From Pseudomonadota bacterium (GTDB lineage Bacteria; Pseudomonadota; Alphaproteobacteria; Sphingomonadales; Sphingomonadaceae), in the NCBI GenBank assembly GCA_963205285.1, contig CAUJJQ010000072.1, forward strand, positions 1 to 14,918: DNA of 14,918 nucleotides, written 5' to 3'. Numbering within the stretch: the first letter of the stretch is position 1; the number at the start of each line of letters is the position of its first letter. The notes below the pieces were generated by a model. That model saw only the letters and a list, made by a program, of their open reading frames with translations. It did no database searches and was not told where the DNA came from. Below are positions 6,733 to 14,918 of the stretch, one piece after another. A program made the translations under genes and the position numbers.

Positions 6733-7796
6733 CCAGCGATGTCCTTAGCTTTGTCGACGGGGCGGCGGGGCGCATCCGCCTCAACCGCCCGGGTGCCATC
6801 CATGCGCTGACGCTCGATATGGTGGATGCGATGACACAGGCGCTCGTCGCGTGGCAGGGTGATGATGCTGTTACCGCCGTCATCATCGACCATGCAGCCG
6901 CGCCCGACGGCGACCCGAAAAAATCGCGCGGCTTTTGCGCGGGCGGCGACATTGGCTTTCTGCGCAACAGCGCATTAAACGATGGCGGGGTGTCGGGGCG
7001 GCGGTTTTTCCACGACGAATATCGGCTGAACCATCTGCTCTTTACCTATGCCAAGCCTGTCGTCGCCTTTATGGACGGCATCACCATGGGCGGCGGGGTC
7101 GGCATTTCGCAGCCCGCCACCTATCGGATCGCCACCGAAAATACGCGTTTTGCCATGCCCGAAACGGGCATCGGCCTGTTCCCCGATGTTGGCGGCGGCT
7201 GGTATCTGTCCCGCCTTGCTGGGCGATTGGGGCAATATCTGGCGCTGACTGGCGCGCGGCTCGACGGCGGGGAATGTCTGTGGGCCGGCCTTGCCACCCA
7301 TTTTCTGGAAAGCGCCGCGCTGGCCGACGCCAAGGCGCGAATTGCGGCAGGTGAAGCGCCCGGTGCCGTGCTCGATGCTTTGTCGTCTGCGCCGCCGCCG
7401 CCCAAAGTCGCCGCCCATGCCAGCGACATCGCCCGCGATTTCGCATCCGATGTGTTGGAGGATATTTTGGCGAGCCTTGCGGCGGATGATGGTGATTGGG
7501 CACGGGCGACGCTGGCGAGCCTCGGCACCAAAAGCCCGCAAACCTGCAAGGTCGCGCTGCGCCAATTGCACGACAGCCTGTCATGCGCCGATTTTGCCGC
7601 CAATATGAAAATGGAATATCGCATTGCGTCGCGTGTCCTCATCCGACCCGATTTTGCAGAGGGGGTGCGCGCGGTGATTGTTGACAAGGATGGTGCACCG
7701 CGCTGGAACCCGCCGACCGCTGCGGGCGTGACCGACGCATTGATCGAGGCTATTTTTGCGCCCCTGCCCACCAATGAAGAATGGACCCCGCTATGA
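6729..7796 (+). CDS. 3-hydroxyisobutyryl-CoA hydrolase (HIBCH-like, crotonase superfamily)
   Basis: This enzyme releases free 3-hydroxyisobutyrate from its CoA ester, the step that makes valine degradation unusual among beta-oxidation-like routes. The 355 residues are the HIBCH size, larger than a simple hydratase. The crotonase oxyanion segment is [13 protein letters not shown] (66-78), followed by [13 protein letters not shown] and [20 protein letters not shown] (144-163). E145 and D153 are spaced 8 residues apart, as are the catalytic Glu and Asp of HIBCH. A C-terminal extension with [13 protein letters not shown] and [14 protein letters not shown] is specific to this branch. Both ends are ATGA overlaps with its neighbours. 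Hydrolysing this ester quickly also removes methacrylyl-CoA pressure, which fits coupling to the hydratase next to it. The assignment over a plain enoyl-CoA hydratase is secure. Confidence 0.95.
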
Positions 7797-10059: not shown

Positions 10060-11223
10060 ATGGAGCCGATGCTCGATTTTGCGCTGGGCGAAAATGCCGA
10101 CATGATCCGCGATAGCGCGCGCCGTTTTGCAGCGGAAAAAATTGCCCCGCTCGCGCAGCGTATCGATGCAGATGATTGGTTCCCGCGCGATGAATTATGG
10201 GCGGCGATGGGCGAATTGGGGCTGCATGGCATTACCGTCGCCGAAACGGACGGTGGGCTGGGTCTGGGCTATGTCGAACATGTCGTGGCGGTGGAGGAAA
10301 TCAGCCGCGCGTCCGCCTCCATCGGGCTTAGCTATGGCGCGCATTCGAACCTGTGCGTCAACCAGATCCGCCGTTGGGCATCGCCTGAACAAAAGGCCAA
10401 ATATCTGCCCGGACTGATTTCGGGCGCGCATGTCGGCAGTCTTGCCATGTCCGAAACGGGCGCGGGATCCGACGTCGTTTCGATGAAGCTGAAAGCCGAC
10501 GCGGTGCAAGGCGGCTATATCCTCAACGGCACAAAATTTTGGATTACCAACGCCACCTATGCCGACACGTTGGTTGTCTATGCCAAAAGCGCGCCCGAAG
10601 CCGGGTCGCGCGGCATCACCGCCTTTTTGATTGAAAAGGGGGATGCCGGATTTTCCATCGGCCAAAAAATCGACAAGGTCGGTATGCGCGGTTCCCCCAC
10701 CGCCGAACTGGTGTTCAACGACTGTTTCATTCCCGAAGACCGCATCATGGGACCGCTGCACGGTGGGGTCGGGGTTTTAATGTCGGGGCTGGATTATGAA
10801 CGGGTCGTCCTTGCCGGGCTGCAACTGGGCATCATGCAAGCATGCATCGACGTTACCCTGCCCTATATCCGCGAACGCAAGCAATTTGGTAAGCCGATTG
10901 GCAGTTTCCAACTGATGCAAGCCAAGGTCGCGGACATGGTCGTCGCACTCAATTCAGCGCGCGCTTATGTCTATGCGGTCGCCCGCGCGTGCGACGCGGG
11001 CAATACGACGCGCCATGATGCGGCGGGCGCGATTTTGCTGGCGTCGGAAAATGCGGTGCGGGTCGCGGGGGAAGCGATACAGGCATTGGGCGGCGCGGGG
11101 TACACCCGCGATTGGCCGGTCGAACGATATTGGCGCGATGCCAAATTGCTCGACATCGGGGCGGGCACCAATGAAATTCGCCGGATGCTGATTGGCCGCG
11201 AAATGGTCGGAGGTGCGCGGTGA
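10060..11223 (+). CDS. ivd: Isovaleryl-CoA dehydrogenase
   Basis: This FAD-dependent enzyme converts isovaleryl-CoA to 3-methylcrotonyl-CoA in leucine degradation. The 387 residues match the family. The flavin/substrate segment is [15 protein letters not shown], followed by [21 protein letters not shown] and [16 protein letters not shown]. The key specificity evidence is the catalytic base. In isovaleryl-CoA dehydrogenases it lies in the helix segment GLDYERVVL, present here as E247, while the position that holds glutamate in most acyl-CoA dehydrogenases reads GAGTNEIRR with A368. This cleanly separates it from the dehydrogenase at 5587. A strong AAGGGGG ribosome site lies 8 bases before the ATG. 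The stop overlaps the next start as GTGA, so it leads a leucine operon read together with the carboxylase genes. Confidence 0.96.
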
Positions 11224-12860
11224 CCGCCCCTGTTCTGCCGACCAGCTATAACCTCGACGACCCGGCGACAAAGGCGCGCATCGCGCATAATGTGGCGTTA
11301 AAGGATGCGCTATGGGCAAGCGTTGCTGAGGCTGCGCTGGGCGGCCCGGAAAAGCACCGCGAGCGGCATGTTTCGCGCGGTAAATTGCTGCCGCGTGCGC
11401 GGGTCGAACAATTGCTCGACCCCGGTTCCCCCTTCCTCGAAATCGGTCAACTCGCGGCCAATGGCATGTATGAGGGGGATGTCCACGGCGCATCGCTGAT
11501 TTGCGGCATCGGGCGGGTTTCGGGCCGCCAGTGCATGATCGTTTGCAATGATGCGACGGTAAAGGGCGGCACCTATTACCCGATGACGGTCAAGAAACAT
11601 TTGCGCGCGCAGGAAATCGCGCTCGAAAACCGGCTGCCGTGCATCTACCTCGTCGATAGCGGCGGGGCCAATTTGCCGCATCAGGCCGAAGTATTCCCCG
11701 ATCGGGAGCATTTCGGGCGGATTTTCTTCAATCAGGCGAATATGTCGGCGCGGGCCATCCCGCAAATCGCCTGTGTGATGGGCAGTTGCACTGCGGGCGG
11801 CGCCTATGTTCCCGCCATGTCCGACGAAAGCGTGATTGTGCGGGGACAGGGCACGATCTTTCTCGCCGGGCCGCCGCTGGTCAAGGCCGCGACGGGTGAA
11901 GAGATCAGCGCCGAGGATTTGGGGGGCGGCGACCTCCACGCCAAAAAATCGGGCGTTGTCGACCATCTGGCCGAAAATGACGAACATGCGCTGACCATCG
12001 TGCGCGATATTGTCTCACACCTCCAAAGTCCGTTCGTGTCGAGCGCAGTCGGGGCACGCGGGGGCACCTCTACGTCGCTCGATGCGAACGGTATGAAGGA
12101 AGCCCGCCCCCCCAAATATGATGCGAGCGACCTCTACGGCATCATCCCCGATGATGTGCGCGCGCCCTATGACGTCCACGAAGTCATCGCGCGGCTGGTT
12201 GACGGCAGCGAATTTCATGCGTTCAAGGCCAATTATGGCACCACGCTGGTTTGCGGCTTTGCGCATATCTGGGGGATGCCGGTCGCCATCCTCGCCAATA
12301 ATGGGGTGCTGTTCAGCGAAAGCGCGCTCAAGGGGGCGCATTTCATCCAACTGGCGCAGCAACGGCGTATCCCCCTGCTCTTCCTCCAGAATATCTCTGG
12401 CTTCATGGTCGGCGGCAAATATGAGGCGGAGGGGATAGCCAAGCATGGCGCAAAGCTGGTGACGGCGGTCGCCACCGCGACGGTGCCCAAGGTGACTTTG
12501 CTGATCGGCGGATCGTTTGGAGCCGGAAACTACGGCATGTGCGGGCGCGCCTATAGCCCACGTTTCCTCTTTTCCTGGCCCAATGCGCGCATTTCGGTGA
12601 TGGGCGGCGAACAGGCAGCAAGCGTGCTGGCCACCGTCCACCGCGACGCCGCCAAATGGAACGCGGAGGAAACAGAGGCTTTCAAAGCCCCGGTGCGCCA
12701 GAAATATGAGGATGAGGGGAATCCCTATTACGCCACCGCGCGGATGTGGGACGATGGCATCATCGACCCCGCACAAACCCGCGATGTGCTGGGGCTGGCT
12801 TTTTCGGCGTGTGCCGGTGCTCCGGTTGAGGAGCGGGGCTTTGGGGTGTTCCGGATGTGA
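11220..12860 (+). CDS. mccB: 3-methylcrotonyl-CoA carboxylase, beta (carboxyltransferase) subunit
   Basis: This non-biotinylated subunit moves CO2 from biotin to 3-methylcrotonyl-CoA, giving 3-methylglutaconyl-CoA. At 546 residues it has the usual size, with two crotonase-like halves. The N half holds [26 protein letters not shown] (146-155) followed by [20 protein letters not shown], and [15 protein letters not shown]. The C half holds [18 protein letters not shown] from residue 430 and then [14 protein letters not shown]. The pattern with [13 protein letters not shown] separates it from propionyl-CoA carboxylase. The start is GTG in a GTGA overlap with ivd. Its stop lies in another GTGA that starts an HNH nuclease gene, not the next pathway gene. 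Its partner subunit gene begins only at 14112, beyond about 1.25 kb of unrelated DNA, and is broken. Confidence 0.96.
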
Positions 12861-13462
12861 TTGACGAGACCTATCAGGGCGAGCTTACTGAAGACCAGAA
12901 GTTCGAGATGCTGCACGTCACATTCCCGGATAGCAGTTGGCCGACATATCTGCACAAAACGCCCGAGATCGAAGCTGCATATCGAATATGGCTTGCCAGT
13001 GCGTGTAATCACGACGAAGAACCCGGCATTCGGCGAAAAGCAATCAAAGGTGGCGGAGCGCAATACGTGCAGGTGTGCCTCGATTGTGGTTATCAGTTTG
13101 GCGGGCCCGTCGCCAAGAAAGACGTGCCGAACCTCGACGAGGTGCCTGATTTGGGAGAGCTTGCAGAAGATCGCTTCCTTCGTCTCCGGTTTGAGAATTG
13201 GCGCGATCAGAAACTGAGTTTTTGGGAGAAGCAGGCCGTTAAGGTCAGCAAGGAATATGCGGCCTACCTAAAATCCCCCGAGTGGCGGGCAAAGAGCCGG
13301 CAGGTCATTCTTCGCGCCCAAGGGATGTGCGAAGGCTGCCGAGAACGGCCAGCAACCCAAGTTCACCATCTGACGTATGAGCACCGATTCAACGAGTTTC
13401 TATGGGAGCTCGTAGCAATCTGTGAAAACTGCCACGCCCGTGTTCACCCTGAAAAGCACTGA
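12857..13462 (+). CDS. HNH endonuclease-like protein with N-terminal zinc site, inserted after mccB
   Basis: This 201-residue protein has a C-terminal HNH nuclease domain (about 137-201): [20 protein letters not shown]158/C161, the H170-H171 pair in VHHLTYEHR, and C189-x2-C192-H193 with H197. The two Cys pairs would hold zinc, and the histidines would bind the catalytic metal and activate water. The N-terminal half has a second likely zinc site, C50/H52 with C74/C77 (CNH and CLDCG), which may bind DNA. It starts at GTG inside the mccB stop (GTGA). Composition differs from its neighbours: two 60-base blocks at 12901 and 12961 each have 31 G/C, and Glu codons are more often GAG. It has no known part in leucine degradation. 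A free-standing homing-type nuclease, a phage remnant or a restriction enzyme are all possible, and its target is unknown. Confidence 0.8.
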
Positions 13463-13466
13463 CAGC

Positions 13467-13494
13467 AGCTTATGATAACCTCCCTCTTCATCGC
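13467..13494 (+). repeat. Direct repeat, left copy (duplicated mccA start region)
   Basis: These 28 bases match 14107-14134 at 26 positions, with differences at 13477 and 13487. The copy includes an ATG (13472) and the codons for MITSL, then diverges from mccA after 13494. An ORF from this ATG runs into the palindromic element and stops at 13675, so it is a remnant of the mccA start, not a gene. Confidence 0.8.
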
Positions 13495-13506
13495 CATTCA
13501 CCTTAA

Positions 13507-13652
13507 AATCCTCCCCGAGCTTGCCTCGGGGAGGGGGACCGCCGGACATCGTCCGGTGGTGGAGGGGTGGGTGCGCTTGATGCGCTCGCTTCGCTCGTGC
13601 CCCTCCGTCATCGCTGCGCGATGCCACCTCCCCGAGACAAGCTCGGGGAGGA
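13507..13652. repeat. 146-bp palindromic (MITE/REP-like) element with multiple hairpins
   Basis: The unit begins and ends with the same inverted sequence, TCCTCCCCGAGCTTG and onward, matching at 27 of 29 positions when 13652 is read backwards. Each end is itself a hairpin: stem 13510-13519 with 13525-13534, and stem 13627-13636 with 13642-13651. Between them are a 10-bp stem (13538-13547 with 13551-13560, one G-T pair), a GGAGGGG/CCCCTCC pair (13561-13567 with 13600-13606) and a small CATCG/CGATG stem (13609-13623). It lacks coding content and would fold strongly in RNA. Confidence 0.8.
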
Positions 13653-13667
13653 TATTCGGGGCTTTCC

Positions 13668-14102
13668 ATGTTTAAGGATCATGCGCCAAAGCCTGCTGCT
13701 GGCTCCGTCCAACGCGCCCGCAAATTGCGCAAGGAAATGACCCTGCCCGAGGTATTGCTTTGGCACCTACTGCGCGGGCAGCCACAGGGGGTGAAGTTTC
13801 GCCGTCAGCATCCAAGTGGGGAATTAGGCATCGATTTCTATTGCTCTGATGCGCGGCTGGTGATCGAGATTGATGGCATGGCGCATGATATGGGCGACCG
13901 GCCAGAACGCGATGTGCGGCGGGATGCGTGGTTAAAATCTGAGGGGCTGGATATAGTGCGGATTGCGGCGGCGGATGTTCTCAAGGATCATGTTGCTGTG
14001 GCTGACAGCATAATTCAGATGGCGCTTTCGCGCTTACCCCTACACCATCCGGCTGCCGCCGGACGGTCCCCCTCCCCGAGGCAAGCTCGGGGAGGATTAT
14101 AG
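13668..14102 (+). CDS. DUF559-domain protein (PD-(D/E)XK-like endonuclease fold)
   Basis: This 144-residue protein contains a DUF559/Vsr-like domain at about residues 14-121. It opens with QRARKLRKEMTLPEVLLWHLL, continues with GVKFRRQHPSGELGIDFYC, and has the core VIEIDGMAH. Likely catalytic residues are D56 in GIDF and E67-x-D69, together with nearby H73, as in very-short-patch-repair-type nucleases. The following segment RPERDVRRDAWLKSEGLDIVRI is also typical. Residues 122-144 (from LPLHHPAAAGRS onward) lie outside the domain and are encoded by the right inverted repeat, whose last bases supply the stop. The gene lies wholly within the palindrome-bounded unit, and its ATG is 16 bases after the 146-bp element. 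Members of this family are usually small orphan nucleases of unknown biological role. Confidence 0.85.
   Translation: MFKDHAPKPAAGSVQRARKLRKEMTLPEVLLWHLLRGQPQGVKFRRQHPSGELGIDFYCSDARLVIEIDGMAHDMGDRPERDVRRDAWLKSEGLDIVRIAAADVLKDHVAVADSIIQMALSRLPLHHPAAAGRSPSPRQARGGL
14064..14098 (-). repeat. Right 35-bp terminal inverted repeat of the DUF559 unit
   Basis: Read on the minus strand this equals 13507-13541 exactly. It contains the hairpin CCTCCCCGAG/CTCGGGGAGG with a 5-base loop and overlaps the end of the DUF559 reading frame. Confidence 0.85.
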
Positions 14103-14106
14103 GATA

Positions 14107-14134
14107 AGCTTATGATCACCTCCCTCCTCATCGC
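14107..14134 (+). repeat. Direct repeat, right copy (authentic mccA start region)
   Basis: This copy continues in frame into the biotin carboxylase sequence, so it is the original gene start. It matches 13467-13494 at 26 of 28 bases. AGGA at 14101-14104, just right of the inverted-repeat unit, is 7 bases before the ATG and may serve as its ribosome site. Confidence 0.8.
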
Positions 14135-14918
14135 AAACCGTGGCTAAATCGCCTGCCGCATCATCCGCACCGCGCGCGACATGGGTATCCGCACGGTGGC
14201 GGTATATTCGGATGCTGACGCGCGCGCGCGCCATGTCCGCATGGCCGATGCCGCAGTGCATATCGGCCCCAGCCCGGCGCGCGAATCCTATCTGGTGGGC
14301 GAAAAAATCATCGCTGCGGCCAAGGCAACGGGGGCAGAGGCGATCCATCCGGGCTATGGTTTCCTGTCGGAAAATGCCGAATTTGCACAGGCGGTCATCG
14401 ATGCAGGGATAATCTGGGTCGGGCCCAAGCCTGCCAGCATCACCGCCATGGGGCTGAAGGATGCGGCCAAAAAATTGATGGCGGCAGCGGGCGTTCCCGT
14501 GACCCCCGGTTATTTGGGCGAAAATCAGGACGCCGATTTCCTCAACCGACAAGCCGCCGACATTGGCTACCCCGTCCTCATCAAGGCGGTCGCGGGCGGC
14601 GGGGGCAAGGGGATGCGGCTGGTCGTAGCGGCGGGCGATTTTGCCGATGCCCTGTCGTCCTGCCAGCGCGAAGCAGCGGCCAGTTTCGGCAATGCCCATG
14701 TCCTGATCGAAAAATATATCCAGCGTCCGCGCCATATAGAGGTGCAGATATTCGGCGATACCCACGGCAACATCGTCCATCTGTTCGAACGGGATTGTTC
14801 GCTGCAACGCCGCCACCAAAAAGTGATAGAGGAAGCGCCAGCACCGGGCATGGATGCGGCGACGCGCGAGGCATTATGCGCCGCCGCCGTGCGCGCGGCG
14901 CAGGCGGTCGATTATGTC
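14112..14918 (+). pseudogene. mccA: 3-methylcrotonyl-CoA carboxylase, alpha (biotin carboxylase) subunit, nonsense codon 12; 3' end outside window
   Basis: The intact protein would carboxylate its own biotin using ATP and bicarbonate, then pass CO2 to the mccB product. From ATG 14112 the frame reads MITSLLIANRG, then TAA at 14145-14147 where the family has glutamate (ANRGEIA), then IACRIIRTARDMG and onward without another stop to the window end (269 codons seen). Motifs are intact: AIHPGYGFLSENAEFA, the ATP-grasp glycine loop KAVAGGGGKGMRL, HIEVQIFGD and ERDCSLQRRHQKVIEEAP. One base change, GAA to TAA, explains the lesion. The next in-frame start is ATG 14181 (codon 24), which lacks a ribosome site and would omit the first strand and helix of the N-terminal domain. 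A sequencing error or re-initiation is possible. The gene is otherwise so well preserved that any inactivation must be recent. Confidence 0.8.

Follow-up and report, generated by a model that had tools for sequence, protein, structure and literature searches.

What does a small nuclease gene do inside a pair of long palindromes? The 14,918-nucleotide stretch of sphingomonad DNA analysed here (the window) carries, between a carboxyl transferase gene and the gene of a carboxylase alpha subunit, a DUF559 gene framed by inverted repeats, and the question is whether gene and palindromes form a working pair. REP-type palindromes are common bacterial repeats; to our knowledge, the RAYT transposase is the only dedicated REP enzyme, and we know of no partner for the other palindromes. 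The initial annotation of the locus had suggested an analogue of a REPtron, in which the DUF559 protein acts on the palindromes and spreads them.

The boxed DUF559 gene of the window

In the window sequence, the two arms of the unit (13507-13541 and 14064-14098) form a perfect 35-bp inverted repeat, compared with a longest one of 18 in 200 simple shuffles of positions 13460-14140. The boxed ORF (13668-14102) is intact, encodes 144 aa and matches DUF559 in Pfam (PF04480, E = 1.8e-25), and its 3' end is overlapped by the right repeat, such that the last ~20 codons read into the arm. The first description of the locus, as a 144-codon DUF559 gene between 35-bp perfect inverted repeats whose ends form hairpins and are homologous past the perfect part, is borne out by these data: the arm homology covers 53 nt at 85% (13504-13556 and 14049-14101), and each arm is a double hairpin whose first stem, CCTCCCC...GGGGAGG, is joined by a linker to another, the folding of the three window arms being matched by none of 200 shuffles. 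The unit is asymmetric, with a full pair of half-repeats on the left (13507-13568 and 13595-13656) and a single half on the right, and the foot of the repeat, usually GGTGGAGGGG, is replaced by the variant GGTGTAGGGG in the window's right arm. The features of the locus are listed below; mccA and mccB are names assigned on our own reading of the sequence, the Pfam match for mccB being Carboxyl_trans.

11220 to 12860, forward strand: mccB-like carboxyl transferase gene, left neighbour of the insertion site (PF01039, Carboxyl_trans, E = 9e-152)
12857 to 13462, forward strand: additional ORF of 201 aa that overlaps the mccB stop and precedes the unit; Cys/His pattern HNH-like by eye
13467 to 13494, forward strand: left copy of a 28-bp direct repeat (duplicated mccA start), 26 of 28 positions identical to the right copy
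13507 to 13568, forward strand: left outer half-repeat, with hairpin 1 (13510-13534), linker, hairpin 2 (~13538-13560) and foot GGTGGAGGGG; holds the 35-bp perfect match to the right arm
13595 to 13656, reverse strand: left inner half-repeat in opposite orientation, foot CCCCTCCGTC; 91% over 33 nt; forms with the outer half a REPIN-like pair of ~150 bp
13668 to 14102, forward strand: DUF559 gene, 144 aa, domain at ~13710-14018 (PF04480, E = 1.8e-25); D56-F57, E67-x-D69-G70 and H73 conserved
14037 to 14098, reverse strand: right half-repeat, with hairpin 2 (~14044-14067) and hairpin 1 (14071-14095)
14107 to 14134, forward strand: 28-bp direct repeat, right copy, running across the beginning of the carboxylase alpha-subunit gene (mccA start codon at 14112 included)

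The 201-aa ORF gave no family match in Pfam, NCBIfam or PADLOC, and its spot is taken by different sequence in other genomes. The mccA frame of the window holds a TAA at codon 12 (14145-14147), which could stem from a genuine lesion or from faulty assembly.

The residues D56-F57, E67-x-D69-G70 and H73 are invariant in the 17 proteins of the clade to which the window gene belongs (clade W), and a profile of this clade matches, among solved structures, the endonuclease-like 3hrl (E = 5e-22), PvuRts1I (1e-5) and, weakly, the mobile intron protein 3r3p (0.017). The DUF559 gene is under purifying selection, with dN/dS values of 0.09-0.13 in four clades. PADLOC returned weak matches only, to DpdF and, for one member, to a homing endonuclease model (E = 0.0076), and a defence role for DUF559 was set aside on account of their weakness.

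Recurrence of the box and its match to the protein tree

PF04480 is present in 62 of 99 related genomes, at up to 12 copies per genome, and the box recurs with it. When unequal loops are allowed in the hairpin pattern, DUF559 genes of the genus carry hairpins on both sides in 94 of 100 cases, on one side in five and on neither in one (one more gene lies at a contig edge), compared with 0 of 814 control intervals on both sides and 37 on one. Likewise, an inverted repeat scoring at least 18 lies within 300 bp of the domain in 54 of 59 DUF559 genes, drawn from loci with as much as 4 kb of flanking sequence (L084 and L096 having been left out because of contig edges), versus 2 of 818 control intervals from the same loci. 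The genus loci came from a PF04480 search by E-value and from the mcc junction, with the addition of L162 and L169, two biased entries obtained by palindrome search. The two scoring controls (L095 and L105, near locus position 7500) contain GGATGCCGGATCAAGCCCGGCATGACG-like repeats that resemble CGTC REPs by eye; these lie near, not around, DUF559 and look to be of another type than the boxing repeats.

Beyond this set, 13 of 18 measurable loci among a further 20, mostly from families not sampled before, are boxed on both sides. A phylum-wide sample of 29 DUF559 loci has hairpins on both sides in 10, on one side in 10 and on neither in nine; an inverted repeat scoring at least 16 lies within 400 bp in 15 of the 29, and one of the other 14, L042, was scored at a mistaken position, at a contig edge. 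DUF559 genes that lack the repeats, an observation held from the outset to speak against a link, are thus rare in the genus and common in the phylum sample. Boxes of the CCCTCTCCC...GGGAGAGGG kind occur in several other families (L043, L047, L053, L056, L060 and L061), and L048, of the same class as the window, has a 101-bp inverted box. Eight loci were examined out of 37 plasmid records matched, and the five named sphingomonad plasmid loci among them (L262-L265 and L269) are all boxed, including those of Novosphingobium THN1, of Sphingobium RAC03, at the same mccB-mccA junction with the gene reversed, and three of Sphingomonas parapaucimobilis (L264, L265 and L269), one flanked by transhydrogenase genes, one separating sufB from sufC and one next to dnaG; the latter species thus has its boxed genes in or beside housekeeping genes. 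By eye, the cyanobacterial plasmid locus of Synechocystis B12 has hairpins on both sides, the Azospirillum TSH58 locus has them on one side and is not boxed, and an E. coli locus without an inverted box has dissimilar hairpins on its two sides, one of them imperfect and GGGAGAGGG-like.

Two further observations concern the reading frames: some boxed DUF559 domains of hairpin type D (L105, L106, L107, L110 and L112) lie in open frames of 420-480 aa, and in L070, L073, L097 and L109 the domain is open on both strands in the stretch viewed.

The mccB-mccA junction (L130-L159 and L172-L198) was read in 56 genomes (G015 being counted once), of which 55, G003 not among them, were resolved. The two genes abut or overlap in 11 genomes, leaving an empty site; a boxed DUF559 gene lies between them in 13 of the 56, once with a degenerate arm; and other sequence without DUF559, mostly with small ORFs, occupies the gap in 31 of the 55. 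The comparison of occupied with empty sites proposed in the initial annotation therefore finds the junction of related genomes empty or filled by something else, and in four of the 13 junction units, the window included, 300-650 bp of other sequence precedes the boxed gene. That the gap accepts so much other sequence speaks for a passive association, in which GC-rich hairpins and small accessory genes would share permissive gaps or DUF559 would insert preferentially into repeats. However, the hairpin pattern used found nothing in any of the 31 gaps, no control interval is boxed on both sides, and these hairpins were found within 300 bp of the Y1 transposase gene at none of 12 genus loci, leaving this already disfavoured explanation very improbable.

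The duplicated flank at mccA had also been taken as a mark of a real insertion event. The duplication is real, but it is found in the window alone among the units measured: no flank direct repeat scoring at least 10 was detected in 96 units, where the window's own was missed with its boundary set too far in. Target-site duplication, a trait of IS and MITE transposons, was accordingly ruled out as a general hallmark, the window's 28-bp repeat being the exception. In Sphingobium RAC03 (L263), the boxed gene runs against the operon direction, unlike the other copies at the mcc junction, possibly as a result of inversion between the inverted arms.

To relate the repeats to the proteins, hairpin types were assigned with at most one mismatch, leaving 6 of 102 proteins untyped. 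On the tree of all 102 (96 typed), the seven types require nine changes, with a minimum of six and a shuffled mean of 59, so that DUF559 phylogeny does follow the palindromes, a correspondence singled out at first reading as worth checking. The window gene falls in clade W with support 99, and all 17 proteins of this clade are of type W; 19 proteins are W-typed in all, L099 and L103 standing outside the clade. Such clustering is partly expected, since outside W a subclade amounts to a single inherited locus: by chained flank similarity, the 11 subclades concerned occupy one genomic context each. Clade W itself spans 38 loci in nine contexts, with up to three W genes per genome; L039 and L217, on contigs of 95,022 bases each, appear to be one locus, giving 37 distinct loci, and the plasmid loci L262-L264 were placed in the clade by similarity, not by the tree. 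From these nine contexts it follows that the block moved there on evolutionary time. The earlier idea of a unit moving as a block consequently stands for clade W, and gives way elsewhere to genes that keep one context per subclade, with no free hopping.

The nine contexts would also suit homing, in which DUF559 would be a free-standing homing-type nuclease gene at home in a repeat pair, cutting gene-less pairs such that recombination copies the gene between the halves, while the repeats spread by other means. The boxed gene does look like a repeat pair with a gene in its spacer, and the distant profile matches of clade W to 3r3p and of one member to the homing endonuclease model point the same way. 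The single site of each subclade outside W argues against homing, as does its prediction that repeats should be common where the gene is missing, to which the counts below are pertinent.

Gene-less copies and repeat number

The same double hairpins that box the genes of the mcc junction are found in copies without a gene. Genome G029 holds eleven such copies of 185-188 bp, each composed of two inverted double hairpins and 78-99% alike (median 86%), and G049 holds two of 137-138 bp. GAT stands to the left of the hairpins in nine of the 11 G029 copies and seven of 13 gene-bearing units, and ATC to their right in 11 of 11 and 10 of 13, respectively; GAT...ATC was therefore ruled out as an invariable pair of unit ends, these ends being usual, not universal. 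Several of the G029 copies (L199-L209) bear further inverted, GCGGACGTAGC-like flanks, so the repeated unit may exceed the hairpins.

Some compensation is seen in the stems. Among W repeats with the commonest length of hairpin 2 (14 distinct strings of 37 distinct W repeats), two of the four stem pairs covary, with 14 of 14 and 13 of 14 strings paired, values reached by 0 and 1 of 500 shuffles, the other two pairs being too constant; hairpin 1 has one covarying pair (10 of 11, 1 of 500 shuffles), all of these being counts that related sequences can inflate. Insertion polymorphism of the gene-less repeats was sought in 52 clusters, 23 of which have a candidate empty place; most cases are hairpin variants or alignment slips, and a few insertions of 96 bp look real (L127 versus L121; L076, L113 and L071 versus L102 or L078). 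An RNA family search returned one match only, far below the gathering score.

Repeat counts, which include the box hairpins unless stated otherwise, rise with gene number: those of CCCTCTCCC...GGGAGAGGG correlate with the number of DUF559 genes over 99 genomes (Spearman 0.78), and at least two are present in 43 of 52 DUF559-bearing genomes of the genus versus 0 of 8 DUF559-less ones. Typed gene presence covers 36 of the 60 genus genomes, W genes being those of at least 122 bits, a cut-off of our own placed where the list has a gap. There, by a test that ignores kinship, W repeats go together with W genes (p = 6e-5), as do A repeats with A genes (p = 3e-4), and either gene predicts its own repeat better than the other's. 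Subtraction of two repeats per W gene, to account for the boxes, leaves the W association at p = 0.009. There are exceptions: G002 and G033 have 39 and 10 W repeats, respectively, without a W gene, and in G032, G026, G027 and G006, which lack genes of clades A14, A6 and A7, A repeats number 42-74; G032 and G027 possess another DUF559 family boxed by similar repeats, and G006 one weak match that is not boxed. The assembly of the window contains four W-type strings in total, at least two of which are the box, and 12 of type A.

The eight DUF559-less genomes of the genus hold 0-2 W repeats each, and A repeats in the numbers 2, 21 (G007), 0, 5, 12 (G034), 0, 0 and 7. The occurrence of palindromes without any DUF559 gene, which had been named as evidence against the partnership, is hence true of type A (five of the eight) and hardly so of the remaining two that were searched, with 0-2 copies apiece. 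Over 249 genomes of the phylum, 62 of which have a strong DUF559 match, at least five hairpins of one type are found in 34 of these 62 and in 10 of the other 187, and permutation within the 13 mixed families gives p = 5e-5; the hairpins of the ten genomes reach 107, and three of the ten have a weak match. Repeats are therefore not common without the gene for two of the three types searched in the genus, nor in most phylum genomes, and we regard homing as unlikely.

DUF559 beside RAYT, CGTC and Vsr-like systems

The partnership has a close parallel in organization. As presented in the parts of the literature drawn on here, RAYT REPtrons and REPINs combine a persistent, vertically inherited enzyme with scattered repeats that are more numerous where the enzyme is present, the RAYT gene lying between inverted REPs and the repeats being dispersed as singles and inverted pairs (PMC8049555; PMC3733652). 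DUF559 genes are similarly flanked by inverted repeats (both sides in 94 of 100, an inverted match in 54 of 59), the repeats of their boxes are dispersed in the genomes, also as inverted pairs, and the gene is inherited in place, with one context for each of 11 subclades and all DUF559 together reaching 12 per genome. The enzymes, in contrast, are unrelated, DUF559 being a PD-(D/E)XK nuclease and RAYT an HUH Y1 tyrosine transposase (PF01797). Unlike RAYT repeats, those of the DUF559 box lack a conserved GTAG at the foot (among the 11 G029 copies, four contain the tetramer and three have it in the 15 bases beyond their ends), and each half-repeat has two hairpins. Y1_Tnp is present in 11 of 60 genus genomes, with G029, G030 and G055 among those that gave no match; nor was PF01797 found in the window's assembly (76% complete), where the boxed protein is PF04480.

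A second comparison concerns the CGTC-tagged REPs, described in the consulted part of a 2013 survey as predominant in alphaproteobacteria, with an 8-9 bp stem that begins with AT and a CCA tail and without a dedicated transposase (PMC3733652). The window's host would belong to this class, as judged from its sphingomonad relatives. One of the two half-repeat types has, by eye, a hairpin 2 of the form CGTC-hairpin-CCA (13595-13656; L038, L054 and L146), whereas the window stem measures 5-6 bp rather than 8-9 bp and hairpin 1 (CCTCCCC...GGGGAGG) is not a CGTC REP. Because this boxing hairpin 1 is a different palindrome, a CGTC link for the whole class was dropped, and the resemblance is limited to hairpin 2 of one half type.

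Finally, DUF559 might serve host maintenance, as a Vsr-like repair or cruciform-processing nuclease for which the adjacent repeats would be substrates, regulators or passengers that it does not spread. Caulobacter VsrA, a DUF559 protein, is a predicted mismatch-repair endonuclease needed for the DNA damage response that appears when a cytosine methylase is missing, according to the part of that report considered here (PMC12907096), and profile matches together with the same report place the boxed proteins in one superfamily with Vsr-like and homing PD-(D/E)XK nucleases (VsrA, 3r3p). Conservation of the genes in place and purifying selection would fit a maintenance role as well. Unlike the DUF559 boxes, however, VsrA comes with no palindrome named in the main text of its report, where the word 'repeat' appears twice, once for a LexA-type direct repeat (PMC12907096). 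Furthermore, repair alone explains neither the type-specific box on nearly every genus copy nor the gene-less copies with the same double hairpins, and we consider a purely host-serving function rather improbable.

A RAYT/REPIN-type pattern joined to an unrelated enzyme leads us to think that DUF559, though no RAYT, plays the part of a REPtron enzyme. We therefore favour, as the probable reading of these comparisons, a RAYT-independent, nuclease-based analogue of the REPtron made up of DUF559 and its hairpins, which appears to resemble the RAYT/REPIN system in its working with an enzyme of separate kinship. The window would then be one member of a widespread gene-repeat partnership between a single-domain PD-(D/E)XK nuclease and an inverted double-hairpin box, with the related repeats found elsewhere in the genomes as single copies and gene-less, REPIN-like inverted pairs. 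DUF559 would recognize its cognate folded repeat, probably in the hairpin form that single-stranded DNA takes up during replication, and would nick or cut it; from there, repair or strand transfer could place copies of the repeat pair elsewhere. The gene would mostly be kept in place like a domesticated enzyme, with the box as its own copy of the substrate. Of the REPtron analogue first suggested for this locus, the link between gene and palindromes is retained, in that the box recurs, its type follows the tree and the palindromes are scarce in most DUF559-less genomes; the freely hopping block is not.

A broader form of the proposal, to which we give an even chance, is that a second class of REP/REPIN elements, present across Pseudomonadota and possibly further afield (Synechocystis B12), is independent of RAYT and has DUF559 proteins as its dedicated enzymes, each matched to its own double-hairpin repeat and driving the spread of GGGGAGG/GGGAGAGGG palindromes; this class may connect to the CGTC repeats via the shared CGTC...CCA hairpin. 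The open-access literature searched gave no description of a link between DUF559 and palindromic repeats, which is not proof of its absence from print. A type-matched nuclease with its repeat box offers a concrete, cheap-to-test candidate enzyme for these palindromes and suggests a role for DUF559, a family named only as one of unknown function; if the proposal is true, the REPtron arrangement arose with unrelated enzymes.
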